Below are positions 4,378-44,625 of a stretch of 64,000 nucleotides of DNA, piece after piece (position 1 is the stretch's first letter; each line of letters opens with the position of its first letter). The DNA comes from Isoetes taiwanensis. Lineage: Eukaryota; Streptophyta; Lycopodiopsida; Isoetales; Isoetaceae. Position numbers and translations under genes: made by a program. The notes beneath the pieces were generated by a model. It had not been told where the DNA came from, searched no databases, and saw only the letters and a list, made by a program, of their open reading frames with translations. The stretch covers positions 620,001 through 684,000 of the forward strand of contig JAJEKV010000103.1 of NCBI GenBank assembly GCA_021234155.1, given 5' to 3'.

Positions 4378-5076
4378 TATTAAGAATCTTAATCCCTTGC
4401 ATGTCTTTCAGATGAGTATCAATGATTATAGCACTCTTATTTTTATTCAAGACCACCTTAGTCAGTCCCAAACTTCTCCATTGCCTTGAGAAAATTCTCC
4501 AAACTATTGTCATCACTTTTAAGAAAAGCAAATGTATCATCTGCATATTGCATGATGGTGAAAGTACCATAGTCCTTAGGCAGCTCAAGACTAATAATGT
4601 CCTTACTATTCCTCCATCTAGGTGATCTACCTTGTTACAACTTCTGCCACAATAAAAAATAAATATGGGGCTAGGGGACAGCCTTGCCTCACTCCCCTTC
4701 TACATTGGAACAATTTTGTGGGGGAACCATTAATTACTAAGGCCGATGATGCTGTGGAGTTGAAGCTCCATATTTTCTTATATACCTCCTCAAAAAACCC
4801 CAGGTGCTGCATGGCTCTCTCCAGAAATTGCCAACTTATGGTATCATATGCTCTCTTGAAATCCAATTTTAGAAGCAAAACAGTTACCGCCTCCGACATA
4901 GCATTCCAAAGGTAGTAGTCCCTCGGCTGACTCCATATCCAGAATGTTCCCTTTTGGAAGAAAAGCTGATTGGCATGGGTTGATAGTCTGCATCAGAATA
5001 TGTTTCAACCTGTTGGCTAGAATTTTTGCCATCACTTTGTATGTTGTATTGGTTAAGGAGATTGGCGGTCTCTAAA
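4378..5076 (-). pseudogene. LINE reverse transcriptase fragment
   Basis: This is the polymerase part of the LINE ORF2. In order it shows the RPPISLTNTTYKVMAKILAN block, QSAFLPKGNILD, LDFKRAYDTISWQFLE, GVRQGCPLAPYLF and the QYADDTFAF catalytic motif, each typical of plant non-LTR reverse transcriptases. The blocks lie in at least two reading frames, so one or more frameshifts separate them. The upstream endonuclease domain is absent because of truncation. It once copied the LINE RNA at a nicked target; in its present state it cannot encode an active enzyme. Confidence 0.88.
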
Positions 5077-12115: not shown

Positions 12116-12119
12116 AAAA

Positions 12120-12129
12120 ACGCGTGAAA
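12120..12129. repeat. Target-site duplication, left
   Basis: ACGCGTGAAA, matched at 14165-14174 directly after the poly(A) tail. The preceding A residues could extend the match to 14 bases. Confidence 0.85.
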
Positions 12130-12201
12130 GGTAGGATCTCGACGCGGTTTGCTTCATAACTTCTGGCTCGGGTGTCAGATTCAGGTGTTTTTTAGTGCGT
12201 T

Positions 12202-12226
12202 GGAAAGCTAGAGATGTGAGCTTTCC
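12202..12226 (+). promoter_or_regulatory. Conserved hairpin in the element's 5' leader
   Basis: GGAAAGCT, a nine-base loop and AGCTTTCC form a perfect 8-bp stem. The same stem and loop size occur at 5777-5801, and a slightly decayed version lies at 38024-38046 in the leader of a related element. A role in internal promotion, RNA packaging or translation is possible but not shown. Confidence 0.55.
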
Positions 12227-12289
12227 ATTGGTGTATAGTTCATACAGTTTTGCTCTGTCTATCTGGGCCGGATTTGGAGTTTACAGATT

Positions 12290-13939
12290 TTGGCTACCAT
12301 GGCAAACCCTAGTTCACCAGCTTCGGAAACACGTTCATCAGCCAAAAAAGTGATAGGTGGTGCTTCTGCTTCTTTTGTGCATGATATGAATTCTCCTTTG
12401 CCGCTTCCTAATTTACCCAATAATTCTCGCCTCAATCCTCTTGCTTTTGACCCTTCTCTTCTTGATATGAGTACAAGCTTCCAGCACTTTCCCCCTCTTT
12501 CTAAATCTGCACTTTTGTCTACTTCTCAAGTAGAGACCACTGTAAATACTTCTACTATTGTTTCTGCTTCCTGTTTGTCTACTACCGAGTGTGTATGCGC
12601 TCTTACGCTCCTTGGGGTTCTTCCGATGTCAGGCTAGCTGGGGCCGTCTACACGATTTAACGATTGGATCAAACGTGATTTGGCATCCAGTGTGCAATCT
12701 GCTCGTGTGTCTGCTGCATTGAATATGATGGTACAGAATAACAAGAAAGAAGTGAGCTCGTATCTAAATAAGTTACAAGCACAAGATGATCGTATGGATG
12801 TTCAGTTGCCTCCTGAGGGTGTATTCTATGAGACACAGCAGTGTTCAAATGCCTTTACACAGGCTGGCCTACCGGTTGTCGAAATTGATCATAATGCTCA
12901 TTTGCAGTGTGTTCAAAACCTTGTGTCTCATGCAGTTGTTTGCCATTTCACTGGACAGTTTTTGGATCTCAGGAGAGTTGGATTCTGGCTAAAACATCAC
13001 CTTCAGAGACTGGGTCTTCCTCACTATGCGTCTCTAAAAGTTTTGGATAAAGATAATAATTTCTTCCTGGTCATGTTTGACTCTTCACTTGCAGTTGACA
13101 GGCTTGTGGAGCGTGGTGTTGATCCTCTTTGGGGACATTATCTTCTATATCAGGTGTATTCTCCTGGATTCTTGCCAAGTAAGTCTGGTGCATTGCGCAT
13201 GCCTTGTTGGCTTGCCTTAGAGGATTTTCCACTAGAACTGCAAGTGTCTGATTTTATGATTGCTATTGCCAATAGATTGGGTATGCATCTTGCCCATTCT
13301 ATTGTTAATGGTCCTCGAATTTGTGTATCTCTTCCTACTTGTGTTTCTATTCCTCAGTCAGTAGTGGTCAAAAGTGGCCGACTTTTTTTCAAGTACAAAC
13401 TACGTCTGCTTAATGGACCTGAGCTTGCCAAGATGTTTCCCAATGTTACTTACAGGTCTAGGCATACTTTTGTCTCTACCTCTCCAATTGCTCCTATCCC
13501 CTGTCACATAGCAGCCACTTCACTCGAATGTCGTGTTGTATCATCTTCTTCCTCACCTGCCTCTGCACTAGTTAATCCGCCAGTATTACCAGCTCGTGTG
13601 CCTTCTTCTCTAGCTATTTCTGCACCATCGCCTTCTTCGAGTGTATCTCCATCTCAGTCTATATCAGTAGACCCTCTTAATGAGGATCAACTCTCTCGTC
13701 TTCTAGACATTGCTCACAAGCAAGAATTATTGGAAGAAGGATGGTCTACTCCATGCTTGAAGAAGCTTGCACGTCGCAAAAATAGCTCGGCTCCTCAATC
13801 TGCGTTAGTTCAATCTGTAGCTCCAGTATCTGCTACGATTGTTACAGTGGATGTCCCTGATTCAGTGGTATTGAGACATCAGGGAGCAGATCAAGTTGCT
13901 GTTAATGATTCTATGGATGTGGAAGTTCGACCTGGTTAA
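12290..13939 (+). CDS. LINE ORF1 protein, DUF4283-like, one in-frame amber codon
   Basis: One frame of 549 codons is interrupted only by TAG at 12635-12637; after the amber, the open frame from the ATG at 12680 encodes 419 residues. The N-terminal part is rich in Ser, Pro and Leu. The middle (about 12860-13330) matches the general pattern of DUF4283 domains in plant L1-type ORF1 proteins: LVSHAVVCHFTGQFLD, GFWLKHHLQRLGLP, NNFFLVMFDSS, then MPCWLALEDFPLELQ and IAIANRLGMHLA. The C-terminal third is Ser/Pro/Ala/Val-rich and low in complexity. I see no CCHC zinc knuckle, which many relatives carry. Such proteins bind the element's RNA and form the particle used for reverse transcription. The amber may be a recent mutation or, less likely, a programmed stop. 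Confidence 0.75.
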
Positions 13940-14139
13940 AGTAACTTGTCTATAAATATGATTATATATTATTCTTCTCTTTGTAGGAGAAGAAAATAGT
14001 GTGAACTGCATTATACTGTCATGCTTAGATGGGTGGCCCTGCTCAGTTGGATATGATTGTCCACTGGGTTTTTTATTCCTGTCTCTGCATTGTATTATGT
14101 ATTATGATGGAGTGTTATTAATAAAGTATGACGTCCTTC

Positions 14140-14164
14140 AAAAAAAAAAAAAAAAAAAAAAAAA
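14140..14164 (+). other. Poly(A) tail of the ORF1 element
   Basis: An uninterrupted run of about 25 A residues follows AATAAAGTATGACGTCCTTC, which includes an AATAAA polyadenylation-type signal. Confidence 0.9.
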
Positions 14165-14174
14165 ACGCGTGAAA
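14165..14174. repeat. Target-site duplication, right
   Basis: ACGCGTGAAA directly after the poly(A) tail, matching 12120-12129. Confidence 0.85.
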
Positions 14175-36041: not shown

Positions 36042-37980
36042 ACTGCACTGTAATTGGGGCTAGATTCCGTTGCAAATCTACATGGAAGTCCAATGGACCT
36101 AAACCAATTATGAGGCATCTAGTTCTCACAAGAGGGACAAATCTCTTTAAGAAGTACATAAACGATTGATTCAAAAAGTTACAGCACTGGTTATGGAAAG
36201 GGAAGGAGGTTTATGCTATTTGTATGCTTGTAAATGGCTTGTCTTGGAAAGCAGTACCGAATGTCCATCTTATTATTGAAGGATAGATTATCTAACATTG
36301 TAATCCTATAGATTCTTTTTTTTATAGAGGGTAGTGGGATTGGGGTAGGAATTTAATAGACTATGAGTGATCACAATATAGCTATTATGTTCAAGCTAGG
36401 TAAAGGAGCCATTCTTTTCGAACTGGACTCTGCACTCTTAAAAGATCATAGATAATCATAAAACTTTGGTGAAATGGGTCAAAACATTTCATCACTTAAT
36501 TTGGAACGGGCAAGGTTGTATAACAAATAATCCCTTATCTCAGGAAACACTCAAGAAGCATTTACATAGAGGAAACATTTAAACAGTTGTTAACCTCTGT
36601 TATATGCATCACATGCCGTATTTTGAAGGAGGCAAAGATAATATACCATTCGAATTTCTTAAGAATTATGTCTAAGGGAGAGAGATGACATTGTTGCTTG
36701 GGCATTTCATTGTCTAATTAGTGTTTATCACTGTTTTTAAGCTTTGGAAGAGATGGCATGTGCAATGGTGGAAATTGGCATGTCTAAAAAATTTGCACTT
36801 TGCAGTGTGAATGATCTTTTATTCTAAAGATATTTTTCAAGTGGGCAAATATGTTGGTCAAAATTTAGATACTTGTGCTAAGTACATATGATGGTTTTTT
36901 TGTTCAATTTAGGCTAGGATCAAATTGCCACTAAATTTAAGGATATGGGTTTGAGATTCCTAATTGCCTGTTATTTGCAATTTGTTTTCTAGGCTAAAAT
37001 GGAAATACCCCTTGGCCCATTTGAATTATTTGGATATATATATTTCTAATAAGGATCATTACTATATTATTATTACTATGCATAAGCATTTTAAATGTAA
37101 AATTCTTAATGATAAAATTATGAGTCCTTTGATTCTGAAATTACACTAGGATAATCAATGAACACTTTACTTTTTGTTGTTACCACTAATAGCAAACTGG
37201 ATACCATTTGTATCTGCAAAATGGCAATTCTTTCCAAGTTGAGGATGCCTTGTTATATTTATTAAACTAGCAAAATGACACTTTTCAAGTTGAAGATGCC
37301 TTGTTATGTTTATTAAACCAATATCAGTTGCATTGTCTAAAGCACCATTTATTTGAGACAATACCATTTGTAGTTAACTTATGATTTTTAACAAAAGGAA
37401 TTGAAACATTTTAATGTATGGAACAACACTGATTCACAAAAGAAAATATGTAGACAACTTAAAAAAACCTATTTAAGTTACACATACAATAAAAGCTTTG
37501 ACCACATACTTAGAAAAATGGCAAAAATTCACTATTATAAATATACTAATAAACTAAATAAGCAAACTACCATAAAGAATCAAGATGGTGAACTATGATA
37601 AGTAACCAATCATGGTTATTCACACATTAACCCACATAGTAACATTTATAATGGTTTCATTAAAAAGATGATGGAAAAAGTGATAACTATTTTTTTGGGG
37701 GGGAGGGGCTTATGATATATAAAAAATAATGAACCGCCCTCGCCCACATATCATATAGGAGAGTAATAGATCCATCCAAAACAGTTACTAACAATTCTAT
37801 GGTAGCATATTACATGTGAAGCTCAAGTTCTATGTCAACATTTTGGGAAGATGGGGAGGCTTGAGCGAATTTGCATAAACATTCGTAACAGGGCATCTTC
37901 TGGCAATCCAGCATTATATGCTAGAGTTAGATTTTCTTGCTCACAGGCTAGGTTTTGGCATTGCTTCAATCTAGGATATC
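36042..37980. other. Unassigned AT-rich DNA
   Basis: A 54-bp tandem duplication with GCAAAATG and AAGTTGAGGATGCCTTGTTA lies at about 37215-37320. No exon is recognised. Confidence 0.45.
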
Positions 37981-38570
37981 TCCCTTTTCGGAATGTCCGC
38001 TTCGAGCGATTTTTGATGCATTAGAAAGCCAGTGCAGTAAGCTTTCCAATTGTGTATGGCATCAGGTGGTTTTTGCTCTTTGCTCTGTTTCAGTCCCGTA
38101 ACTGGGATCATCTATTTCGACCTCCGTGGTTATCACCGCCAGTATGAAAACATTCTTACAGTTTAGTTTACTGCTTCTATGGTCTCTCCAGGTCTGTGAC
38201 TCAACCCTCTTGCCTATGCCCCTCTCCTAGATTTACAACATTTCCTCCCTCTCATTCTATTTATACTTCATCTCTATCTCATCCTTGTAATGTGCCTATG
38301 CTCCTCTCCTAGATTTGCAACATTTCCCCCCACTCGTTCTATTTATACTTCCTCATCTCTACCTCATCCTTCTAGTGTCTTTGTTAATGCTTCAATCATT
38401 CTTCTCTTGCCCCCTCATCCTCTTTCAGGCCTTCCGCCATCTCCTACTCTCCCTTCTATTCCATGATCTACTCTTAATATTGTTACTCGAGTCTCATAAT
38501 AAATGCTCTTCAGTGACTGGATTAAGTGTGACATGACATTTGGTGTCTGTTCTGTTCGTGTTACTGCGAT

Positions 38571-38951
38571 GTGAATCTCATGATGAAGCATAACAGAAAA
38601 GAGGTTTCCATATATATGAAAGAGTTGCAGTCCCGTGAAGATTGGATGGATGTTCAATTAGCTCAGGATAATGTGTTCTATGAAGCAAAGGTCTTTGCTC
38701 AGGCTGGTGTTTCGATTGTGGAGATAGATCATAGTGCCCACTTGCAAAGTTTGCAAAATCTAGTATCTCATGCGGGAGTATGTTATTTGAATGGTCAGTT
38801 CCTTTATCTCAAAAATATGGGCTTTTGGTTGGAACAACATCTTCAAAGATTAGGATTGCCTCGGAATGAGAATGAGTCTCTGAAAGTTGTGGATAAGCAA
38901 AGCAATTATTTCGTAGTGATGTTCGAGTCCCTTACTATTGTTGCAAACTAG
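38571..38951 (+). pseudogene. Decayed LINE ORF1, DUF4283-like
   Basis: This frame aligns along its length with the ORF1 at 12680-13130: RKEVSIYMKELQSREDWMDV versus KKEVSSYLNKLQAQDDRMDV, and QNLVSHAGVCYLNGQFL versus QNLVSHAVVCHFTGQFL. It then stops at 38949-38951. Homologous sequence continues out of frame to about 39600. It is a dead copy of the same nucleic-acid-binding ORF1 protein. Confidence 0.85.
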
Positions 38952-39676
38952 TGGAACGTGGAATGTATCCACGTAAACATCCCTGGATTTCTGCCTAATA
39001 AGTCCGATGCACGTCATATACCATGTTGGTTTGCATTGAAGGACTTTCCTATTAAGCTGCAGATCCCAGGTCGCCATTGCCAATGGATTAGGACTGCACC
39101 TTGCCCATTCTCTTGTCAGTGGTCCTTGCATTTGTGGATCCCTTCATAATGAGGCCTCTCTACCAAAATCTGCGATTCTTACGAGTGGCCCATTTTTTTT
39201 TTAATATAAATTGTCATTGCTTAACAATCCCGAGCTTGCAAATATGTTCTTGATGCTGAGGCCTTCTCTAAATATCGTGCTGAGAGACCCACCATTCCCA
39301 TCCCTCTTGCTTTTGTCTCTCCTACTTCTACTCCTCATGTTTCCAGCCCTATTTCAACCACTCTGAGACCCACCATTCCCATCCCTCTTGCTTTTGTCTC
39401 TCCTACTTCGACCCATGTTTCCATCCCTACTTCTACCACTTTGCAACTGCCCCTTGCCTTCTGCCCTAGTGCCACATGCACAGCGGCCCATGATTGTCTT
39501 TCTACTACCTAGTGAGATGGTCTTGACATCATTGCACGCATGCAACAGCTCCTTGAAGAAGAATGGTCATTGCTCGCATGAAAAACGTCGCTCGGAGAAT
39601 GAATAACTTTGCACCACTGCCCTCTACATATGCTTCTCCCTGTTGAGCCACCACTCCTCACCAATGTTACCACACT

Positions 39677-39726
39677 TCCAAGCACACTGGACTCACGAGC
39701 ACACTGGACTCACGAGCACACTGGAT
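39677..39726. repeat. 17-bp tandem repeat, three copies
   Basis: AGCACACTGGACTCACG occurs about three times in a row between the ORF1 remains and the ORF2 start. Confidence 0.85.
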
Positions 39727-39910
39727 TGACCAAGTAGATACTAGGTCTCATCCTCCATATTCGATTCGCCTGCACAATGAAGTTATCTCCTCGCCTACAC
39801 AATAAAGATATCTCCTGGAATGTGCGGGGAGTTGCCTTCTCTCTTATAAAAGGAGCAGATTGTCCATGGGCCTGGCTAGGTGGGACTCCAGGTGTGTTCG
39901 CAAGAGCATA

Positions 39911-42700
39911 AGTGCAAAGAAGAGGATGCACATAACGTTAATAAATAGACAATATAATGTTATTGTTGCAAGTATTAGCTAAGGTTGGTGTCCTTACAGC
40001 ATTACAACATGGAGGCAAGAGGGACATAAATTATAACTTCCAAAAGAACCAATATAGGCAGATTGAGGAGTTGGTAGAATACATGGAAATTCAGTTGCTG
40101 GCAGAAAATAAAGCTAGATTCCACCAACTCGTCAATTTTCAATATGAGAAACACAAGCTGAATTGCATTTTCCATCATTCAATGTCATTCAACTTCTATA
40201 TTGTTCGGGCAAAAAGCAAAAAATTAAATTTATTTTACAACCGCATTAGTCTGGTTGCCCTAGTGCTTACTAACTCATGCAACTTAGAACAGAGGTTCAT
40301 CAGTAGCCACCTTCCATAGGAGAGACATGAGATGAATTCCATTTTCCCCCATTCAACTTCTATACCGTTCAGCCAAAAAACAAAAGATTCAACCCAATTC
40401 ACAACTATACTTTAGTCTGGCTGCCTGAGTGATTACTAACTCAGGCAGCAGAACACAAACACTAAACACATTGGCTGGATAACTTAGGTTCACCACTAAA
40501 ATAGCCAACAAATTTCATCTTCAAGTTGCCAACTTGGTCACACTATGGCTAAAATAGAATATCAATTAGCGACCCAACCAATACTCCCCCTACAGTTTTA
40601 GCGTGCTAGATTGTGTCCAGCCAAGTAAAAAGTAAAACTGGATACTCATTTTTTTTCCCTTCTCGTCTCATATCCGAGCAGCAGAAAAGCTAAGATCCTC
40701 TGTCTACAGTTTAGATTTAGATGAGGAAATCTTTGGCAAAAGATTTGAATTGAAGCAACAAATCCATAAGCCGTGCACACATAAACATGAAAACAATTTC
40801 GATATAATCAGCTTAGTATCAGATCAATGTCAAATAGCAAACCTGGCTAGAAGAAATATTTAACAAGCTCCTCATCCCCGTGCCATATATTCCGAACCCT
40901 AGCTTTCCAACTCCGGTGGACGCAATGGTCGATACAAGCGCCCAGTATCAGCCGGCTCTTTGAAAGGTATACGAAAGGAAAAGAATAGGCAAAACTTATC
41001 CATAACAAGAAAATTTTGTGATGCTATTCAATAAATGTTAGCTATACAATTGATGATTGCTTCCCCTTTTTCTTCTCAGTTGTGGATGTTATTCGAGAAT
41101 CTGAAACAATATAGAACTTGTTCAAATATGCAGGACAATATCATGTACAAAAAATTGCAATTTCTTCTCAATGCTTTTAACCAAAGGAAATGTGAAAAAT
41201 TTTATACCCGTTCTGAAGCGGATTCGGACTGCTTGGTACTTTATGAAGACCATCTATTGTTGCTTGCCATGGAACATGAACTGAATGGGGCTTGTTCCAT
41301 TTAAAATTATGAACAACAGTCTGCTCATATGACCTCAAGAGCTTCCTTGCTTGATTAGCCGATGGGTTGTATCTTAGCTTCTTGAATGCATAGCTCATGC
41401 CTTTAAATTGCATCGTAAATTGAAACATCACCAAAACAACTATGAAGACCACAAAACCTATGGTTTTCTTCTTCATCTTTAGCATCTTGCTCATGAAGTC
41501 TGTAGCAAACTTCATATGCTTCAAAAGAGAACCCAACAAGTTAAAAGAAAGGGTGAATTATAGATTGTTTCTTGAGTCATGCTTATGGATGTGTTTATAT
41601 AACTATTTTCATTTGTCAATGCTTCACGAAATTCTAGGCTCTACTTTGAGAAACTCCACGAACTTCCAGTTTGATTATTTATTTGTGTGCTACAACTTCA
41701 TGAAACATTTGTGCTTATAGAGTTACTAAAGTCAAGGCCCATAGCTACATGCAGAGTGTCGACGTCATTGTCTGGTTGGTTAGTTAGTGGGTGTCATTTG
41801 TGGGATTATGTGAAGCATTGTCACGTGACTATATGCTCTGAATGTGTGTTTGCTATGATACACTCGCATGATTTGATTGAGGGGAATATATTGCCAAATT
41901 TCTGGATTTGATTTTTGAAATGAACTATTTGAACAAGGTCTATAAATGTTATAATTCATGGTTGCATTGACTGTTTCCATATTTTTAGTCCATTTACACA
42001 TTGTTTACATGTCAAGACATGTCAACAAGTACATCTATTTACGCATTAGTAAGTACACACAAACGTGTATGTGAGTCATGTTTGTGCGCGTGCATGTCTA
42101 GGGCAAAGGAAGAATTGAATATAGATGTAGTTGTCTATATGTATAAGGTATTCTAAGAAAGAAAAGATCTAAAACTTCACATCTTACTATAAAACACCAT
42201 TAAAACACTATAATAACAATCGAAAAGGGAGAAAATCTTACTGGAATTGAGGAGGTACCTAGAACTAGAGGCATACTAGTTGATCTGCACGATTAGAACC
42301 CTATTATTAGAGATTTGTTTGCCACTACTCCACAAAGATGCCAATGTGTTGAATTTAGCAACCATGCATATATGATTTTTTCAAAAAAGATAGGATTAAG
42401 TAAAGAATCTTCATGTGCTTTGTAATGTAGAACATGTGGCATGGCAATTCGAGGGGCATATTACTGAATTTGTGGATTCAAATAGACCTCACTTGCTTAG
42501 GATTGTACGAGACACATGTGAAGTGCAAGACTAAAACAATTTTAACAACCAAATAGATCTAGCAATCCATCTATTAAGGCATGCTTTGATTATTTTAAGT
42601 AGTAGAAAACATATAAGTAAACCAGCCAAATCAGTAGATGCAAGTTAGTGACTTGAAATCCCAAAGAACAAGACAGGTGATAGATGGTTTGGGTAAGAAT
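39911..42700. other. Unassigned DNA with a diverged tandem duplication
   Basis: About 40158-40293 and 40332-40454 are diverged copies (both contain CATTCAACTTCTATA and TAGTCTGG-TGCC). A minus-strand 120-codon frame (41177-41539) holds one hydrophobic stretch (TIGFVVFIVVLVMFQF) after a lysine-rich segment and could be a membrane protein exon, but I recognise no family. Nothing else stands out. Confidence 0.4.
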
Positions 42701-43885: not shown

Positions 43886-43910
43886 TCTATTCTATTCTAT
43901 TCTATTCCTT
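43886..43910. repeat. (TCTAT)5 microsatellite
   Basis: Five uninterrupted TCTAT pentamers. Confidence 0.95.
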
Positions 43911-43959
43911 CATGCAAGTGGCCTTTGGTCATACCTAGGGACCGGCAGAAAGCAGTATG

Positions 43960-44455
43960 AAAATGGGTATGGGATAAACTGCTCCATCCCAAAGTATCTG
44001 TTTAATGGTGATAAGTCATTCATCGTTGTCTGCGCGTTAATATTCTGGTGCACAAATTTCGTCCAGAGGTATCTGGACTTTGTCCCTTATGTGCACAGAG
44101 GGATGAGACAATTGAGCATTGCTTCTTCCTGTATAGAGATATCAGGCATGCTTGATTGTGGCTTCAAAGCCTCTTTCATTGCAATTTGAATAGCCAGCAA
44201 GCGTTATTAGCAGTCTATCCAAATGGTTGGGAAAATTTGGCAAAAAGGGCGTTTCATTTGGCTTCTGCATGGATCATCTGGTCCACATGGAAAAGAAGGA
44301 ATCTTCTCATATTCAAAAGTCTTGCTTGTTCAGATACACAGGTCCTTCTCGATGCCCAACAACGAATTGTCAAAGCATTCAGGTGTTCATCAATAGCTAG
44401 TGAGGTAAAGAGCCGTATTTGGGAGCACTATCTTCAGATTCACATTTACTCATGA
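43960..44455 (+). pseudogene. LINE ORF2 zf-RVT C-terminus
   Basis: The plus strand reads WDKLLHPKVSV, stops, VIHRCLRVNILVHKFRPEVS, then CPLCAQRDETIEHCFFLYRD, a stop in place of W, and LWLQSLFHCNLNSQQ. A further frame (44156-44455) continues with WIIWSTWKRRNLLIF and WEHYLQIHIYS. This is the standard zf-RVT end of a plant L1-type ORF2: W-LL-PKVS, HR-L, CPLC, E---H-FF, then WSTWK-RN. Several stops show decay. It is probably the same LINE lineage as the ORF1 elements because the 3' tail is shared. Confidence 0.78.
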
Positions 44456-44625
44456 GATTTTGCTTGCTCTTCATACTGTTTAGATGTTGTATTTGAGTGG
44501 GGTGGATTTGCTCTGGTGGATATTCTCTCCACTGAGTTTTTAGTCCCCATTGTACTTTGTAACTTTCTCTGGATAATAAAGGCTCAAGTCCTTCAAAAAA
44601 AAAAAAATGGATATATTGTAGGAGA

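Follow-up and report, generated by a model that had tools for sequence, protein, structure and literature searches.

To our knowledge, most non-autonomous retroelements lose all coding capacity. The non-autonomous TR-GAG elements of plants keep their structural gene and have lost their enzymes, a similar idea in another class: they are LTR elements, and their insertion mechanism differs. Among non-LTR elements, HAL1 (half-L1) of mammals is described as non-autonomous, encoding ORF1p only and having several independent origins (PMC5753468), and as a likely user of the full-L1 machinery (PMC4161310). HeT-A of Drosophila is described as encoding no reverse transcriptase and as having a Gag that resembles that of a Pol-bearing relative (PMC5537684). 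For plants, the account of Celine, an L1-type LINE of poplar, reports an ORF1 with DUF4283, a poly(A) tail and duplications of 10–30 bp, and states that DUF4283 is conserved in ORF1 of LINEs from diverse plants (PMC11288735).

Judged by its sequence, the family described here from Isoetes taiwanensis is a non-autonomous derivative of plant L1-type LINEs: it has an ORF1 with DUF4283, target-site duplications, poly(A) tails and LINE-homologous ends, and it has no ORF2. Like HAL1, it is multicopy and encodes ORF1p only; HAL1, however, comes from mammalian L1, whereas the present ORF1 is of the DUF4283 type, the ORF1 and tail match LINEs of the same genome, the 3′ end and the ORF1 seem to be nearest to different LINE lineages, and the end of ORF2 survives as a remnant. 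As in HeT-A, a structural protein is encoded and a reverse transcriptase is not, but HeT-A (partners TART and TAHRE) forms head-to-tail telomeric arrays and serves telomeres, whereas the present copies are dispersed, with distinct flanks and target-site duplications. Celine has the same DUF4283 ORF1, poly(A) tail and target-site duplications in an example of ~6 kb with ORF2, compared with ~2 kb without ORF2 here. An earlier note on this DNA had called an ORF1-retaining family notable; the principle is already known from HAL1 and HeT-A, but our search of the open-licence literature found no ORF1-only LINE family in a plant. The least expected point is the mixed affinity of the family's two ends.

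The window, a stretch of 64,000 nucleotides from an assembly of 1.66 Gb, carries one copy of the family on the plus strand. The element body (12130–14165) lies between two repeats of AAAAACGCGTGAAA, a 14-bp target-site duplication found exactly at the limits claimed in the earlier note (12116–12129 and 14161–14174), with the first As of the 3′ repeat overlapping the poly(A) tail; the tail itself (14140–14165) is 26 A long, not 25 as had been claimed. The 5′ untranslated region (12130–12298) lacks ~21–25 nt of the family 5′ end, and part of it is 70–71% identical over 149 nt to the 5′ region of the LINE copies L051 and L055. The first part of ORF1 (12299–12637) includes a frame-shifted segment and ends in an in-frame TAG (12635–12637); the remainder (12638–13939) has 433 open codons to 13936 and a TAA stop at 13937–13939. 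What had been read as one long DUF4283-like frame does contain the Pfam domain DUF4283 (13031–13285), but the frame is broken at that TAG. The ORF1 core (12653–13465; family codons 121 to ~395, right limit approximate) is the part with the strongest signal of purifying selection. The copy has no ORF2, as had been stated: the ORF1 stop is followed by 200 nt and then by the A run. In these 200 nt, a decayed remnant of an ORF2 3′ end (13957–14030, limits approximate) is alignable with the LINEs that we call type D, and the 3′ untranslated region (14031–14139) has its best match in the type-D 3′ untranslated region, with 81–86% identity over 63 nt in eight loci.

The family to which the window copy belongs numbers a few hundred members in this genome. 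We take this size from pattern counts allowing at most three mismatches, which gave 304 matches genome-wide for the ORF1 end, 274 for the 3′ end and 100 for the 5′ end, and 0 for reversed control patterns; the counts include duplicated loci and are slightly inflated by six pairs with matching flanks. These pairs (L005/L077, L024/L056, L031/L094, L040/L057, L082/L087 and L093/L096) are segmental duplications or uncollapsed haplotypes. The similarity searches scored 40 of 1976 candidates for the element as DNA and 79 of 8537 for ORF1; all 40 places scored in the former match the element closely, and they comprise the window copy and 39 further copies at 87–97% identity. To these 40 copies we added 9 and 20 from 5′-end matches and 3 from the fetch of LINE loci, which makes the 72 copies examined below.

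Lack of ORF2 is common to the copies examined. In 53/72 of them, the ORF1 continues without a break into one common 3′ end; the 5′ end is present in 58/72, and both ends in 33/72. The remaining 19 copies comprise eight that stop inside the 5′ half or middle (L041, L059, L061, L065, L072, L073, L074 and L076), one that stops inside the later part of ORF1 (L038), seven that reach the family 3′ end after a gap or insertion (L032, L039, L042, L045, L047, L053 and L064) and three that stop just past the ORF1 stop (L037, L046 and L048), a run of T interrupting the family's own sequence in L046. A translated search with ORF2 pieces found no sense ORF2 beside ORF1 in the fetched DNA of the 72 copies, which for most loci reached ~120 nt beyond the match; the significant ORF2 matches in L046 and L053, and a weak one in L072, are antisense. 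We also fetched 20 further 3′ ends, drawn from the 100 listed of the 274 matches and unpaired with listed ORF1-end matches: all 20 belong to the family, 17 entering ORF1 and 3 being truncated downstream of it, and none has a sense ORF2 in the DNA fetched. The count of ORF2-less copies with a common structure that the earlier note had proposed as a check thus bears out a family, although not clearly one made by plain internal deletion of ORF2 from one LINE, as it had supposed. At least six copies (L001, L003, L007, L014, L020 and L056) keep an ORF1 frame of 520–555 codons; ORF1 is broken in most copies, as expected of dead copies. One member, L064, is a derivative of ~330 nt that joins the first 100 to the last 220 nt of the family and is flanked by a duplication of its own; we considered it as the start of a SINE-like family and rejected this, its junction occurring once in the genome at up to three mismatches.

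The copies bear the hallmarks of retrotransposition: target-site duplications of variable length, poly(A) tails and 5′ truncation. A common flank word of at least 10 bp occurs in 23/48 copies with usable tail and flanks, compared with 0.6% of mispaired flanks, and at least six As stand directly at the 3′ end in 34/72 copies. Often, ~7–40 nt of copy-specific sequence separate the duplication from the conserved 5′ end; among the 76 flanks compared, we found no extra 5′ nucleotides common to non-duplicate copies of the kind that carried-over flanks would leave. A FastTree phylogeny of 60 copies is star-like, with terminal branches summing to 2.03 and internal branches to 0.16, and it places two main subfamilies on short internal branches. 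The terminal branch of the window copy is 0.023, against a mean of 0.034. With a plant substitution rate of ~6.5e-9 per site per year, ~3–4 million years would have passed since the window copy was inserted; 'recently inserted', as the earlier note had it, is a fair description, but the copy is not an extreme case.

The evidence for selection on ORF1 comes from rare and common variants compared, with CpG sites left out, in 65 of the 72 copies; we dropped L057 as the duplicate of L040, dropped L041, L059, L061, L064, L065 and L074 as too short, and kept the duplicate pair L024/L056. Singletons, which are mostly post-insertion mutations, have an N/S of 609/242 (2.52), close to the neutral expectation of ~2.3 computed with an assumed transition weight. 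The fall of N/S across frequency classes is not smooth: variants in 2–3 copies show no drop relative to singletons (255/91, N/S 2.80, p=0.48), those in 4–7 copies a weak one (62/38, N/S 1.63, p=0.05), and those in eight or more copies a strong one (22/31, N/S 0.71, p=1.7e-5). With 51 copies, an earlier round of this comparison had yielded N/S values of 2.37, 2.04, 1.90 and 0.84 from rare to common. The effect is concentrated in core codons 121–395, with 5/18 for variants in eight or more copies against 288/106 for singletons (p=1.0e-6; a separate count gave 289/107 for the singletons). No depletion was found in the N-terminal part (29/8 in four or more copies vs. 136/57 for singletons, p=0.43), and none that was significant in the C-terminal part (28/20 vs. 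184/78, p=0.13). Read in the two wrong frames, the same columns lose the core effect, and the differences run in the opposite direction (p=0.096 and 0.079). In the core, the depletion of variants in four or more copies appears separately in the subfamily of 41 copies (6/17 vs. 238/106 for singletons, p=5e-5) and in that of 24 copies (7/14 vs. 195/90, p=0.002). Two pairs of intact copies were compared directly, with dN/dS values of 0.35 and 0.36 overall and of 0.23 for the core in each pair. The selection on ORF1 inside the family that the earlier note had wished to see tested is therefore found, both in the common variants depleted of amino-acid changes and in these ratios.

As the depletion lies in the widely shared variants, which spread with source copies, ORF1 remained under purifying selection during the spread of the family, which most likely had no ORF2 by then. 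This order of events, with loss of ORF2 before the selected changes in ORF1, is the most likely one given the common structure of the copies and the failure to find a relative with ORF2 within the family.

The ORF1 protein is likely to bind nucleic acids. Pfam recognizes DUF4283 in the window-copy ORF (E=3e-6) and in the intact copy L007 (E=1e-6); the LINE ORF1 of L049 gives E=0.002, below Pfam's own cut-off. The AlphaFold model of the ORF1 core is of low confidence (mean pLDDT 42), and in it DUF4283 has, again at low confidence, the RRM-like strand order beta-alpha-beta-beta-alpha-beta. The top fold matches of the core model are mostly RRM proteins, 0 of them at E 0.001 or better, and a profile search of solved structures gave no match. 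The RRM-like fold is a hint only, because the model is of low confidence and all its fold matches are weaker than E 0.001.

Among the ORF2-bearing LINEs of this genome we distinguish type A (L049 and L050), type B (L051 and L052) and type D. In types A and B, the end of ORF1 overlaps the start of ORF2. Over 377 columns, the family ORF1 is 65% identical in amino acids to that of L051, 63% to L049, 60% to L052 and 36% to type D, and its core shares 73–75% with the ORF1p of type-A and type-B LINEs. In the ORF1 search, the sole match below 73% was L051, at 62%, and no LINE with a closer ORF1 was found among the 79 of 8537 candidates scored. The type-D LINE was found through its tail, which is the best match of the family 3′ end, and it seems to be very abundant, with 23,236 first-look candidates as a rough figure. 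All eight of the copies fetched, L117–L124, are 5′ truncated, and the type-D 5′ end was absent from the first two loci fetched for it; of five more loci, L127, L128 and L130 reach ORF2 and L127 and L130 also ORF1, L129 gave no match, and L131 has an antisense match only. The type-D ORF1 (L130) is 34–37% identical to that of the other types and the family, and its ORF2 pieces are ~43–83% identical. Both ends of the family are homologous to full-LINE ends, and the ORF1 and the 3′ end are nearest to different LINE types: the final codons of type-D ORF2 can be aligned with the stretch that links the ORF1 stop to the 3′ untranslated region, and over the 3′ end the family shares on average 66% of nucleotides with D, 57% with A and 54% with B. 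In 2000 column bootstraps of the 3′ end, ~200 nt being compared, the family was nearer to D than to both A and B in 97.4%, the 95% interval of the identity difference (−0.0005 to 0.16) just touching zero at its lower end; in 84.6%, the distance to D was smaller for the family than for A and B.

We propose that the window element is quite probably a decayed member of a non-autonomous, ORF1p-only LINE family that uses ORF1p in cis and ORF2p in trans. The element RNA would be made from its own 5′ region and translated into ORF1p, which would coat the same RNA in cis; the endonuclease and reverse transcriptase (ORF2p) would come in trans from a LINE that recognizes the common 3′ tail, most likely the very abundant type D; and copies with a broken ORF1 would cease spreading, so that ORF1 would stay under selection despite loss of the second gene. 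We infer the cis effect of ORF1p solely from this selection, and ~200 nt of 3′ sequence point to type D as the likely partner. In human cells, an Alu transcript made by RNA polymerase II is described as needing ORF1p besides ORF2p, like processed pseudogenes (PMC2666806); an element like the present one would profit from supplying ORF1p itself while obtaining ORF2p by way of a recognized tail.

For the origin of the family, an ORF1 nearest to A and B together with a 3′ end nearest to D suggests that the ORF1 of an A/B-like LINE was joined to a D-like tail. We tentatively see in the family, at close to an even chance, a parasite of two sources, in which one plant LINE lineage gave the ORF1 and 5′ end and another the tail fused to them, with ORF1p acting in cis and ORF2p in trans. 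The chimera is favored but unproven, because the unrooted trees of ORF1 and of the 3′ end agree in their four-group topology (A,B / family,D). The same topology, together with the long type-D ORF1 branch (1.56), makes it possible that ORF2 was deleted in an ancestor of D whose ORF1 then changed fast. Plain internal deletion of ORF2 within one LINE lineage, whether this D ancestor or an unseen lineage that would have an A/B-like ORF1 and a D-like tail, is accordingly a serious contender, which we would nevertheless rate below an even chance: the contrast of 60–65% ORF1 identity to A/B and 36% to D with the opposite ranking of the 3′ end speaks against it, as does the lack of an ORF1 closer than that of L051 among the candidates scored. 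This alternative concerns origin only and is compatible with the proposed working mode, with ORF1p in cis and ORF2p in trans.

Other readings would assign the selection on ORF1 elsewhere. The copies could be processed retrocopies of a LINE ORF1 domesticated as a host gene, with selection acting on that gene and not on a mobile element; the star-like tree fits a few slow sources seeding dead copies, and L1TD1 in mammals is described as a precedent for such domestication (PMC4161310). We consider this unlikely, as the element retains LINE-like 5′ and 3′ sequence, selection is seen separately in two subfamilies, and no intron-split source was found among the 79 of 8537 ORF1 candidates scored. Moreover, the open-ORF1 copies L001, L003, L007, L014, L020, L053 and L056 are all A-tailed (7/7), and six of the seven have a flank word of at least 8 bp, compared with 4.9% of mispaired flanks; with A tails and mostly with flank words, none of them resembles a resident gene. 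A trans role of the family ORF1p, in which it would compete with or help other LINEs and be selected for that effect, is distinctly improbable: the core residues common with A/B LINE ORF1p make mixed complexes conceivable, but a pure trans benefit would presumably not favor copies that carry the gene over broken ones, and it therefore explains the selection poorly. That ORF1 is functionless, the passive baggage of an ordinary deletion derivative, is very improbable indeed; the broken ORF1 of most copies and the neutral look of singletons and of variants in 2–3 copies would fit, whereas amino-acid changes are strongly under-represented among the variants in eight or more copies, an effect seen in no frame but the true one and greatest in the core.

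If the proposed cis use of ORF1p and trans use of ORF2p holds, the two LINE proteins come apart naturally in this family: the RNA itself seems to have to supply ORF1p but need not supply ORF2p. With a plant-type example built on another kind of ORF1, this path to parasitism would look repeatable rather than a quirk of a single lineage, and the cis use of plant ORF1p becomes open to test. Should the two-source parasite be real, nature would itself have supplied evidence, through the selection that persisted on ORF1 once ORF2 was gone, that plant LINE ORF1p acts in cis and that ORF2p can be shared.

The window also contains other LINE sequence. The earlier note had connected the element with a copy at 38–39.9 kb and with a LINE end at 44 kb. 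The former is indeed a related LINE, but a decayed fragment (37939–40002, 71% identical to L049) of a lineage other than that of the 44 kb end; the latter (43906–44607, 87% identical to L052) does share the 3′ tail, weakly (88% over 34 bp and 68% over 124 bp), but is not its closest sharer. The two are fragments of two lineages, not one interrupted element. On the minus strand, positions 4470–5065 hold an antisense reverse-transcriptase fragment of a more distant LINE, with ~41–50% amino-acid identity.
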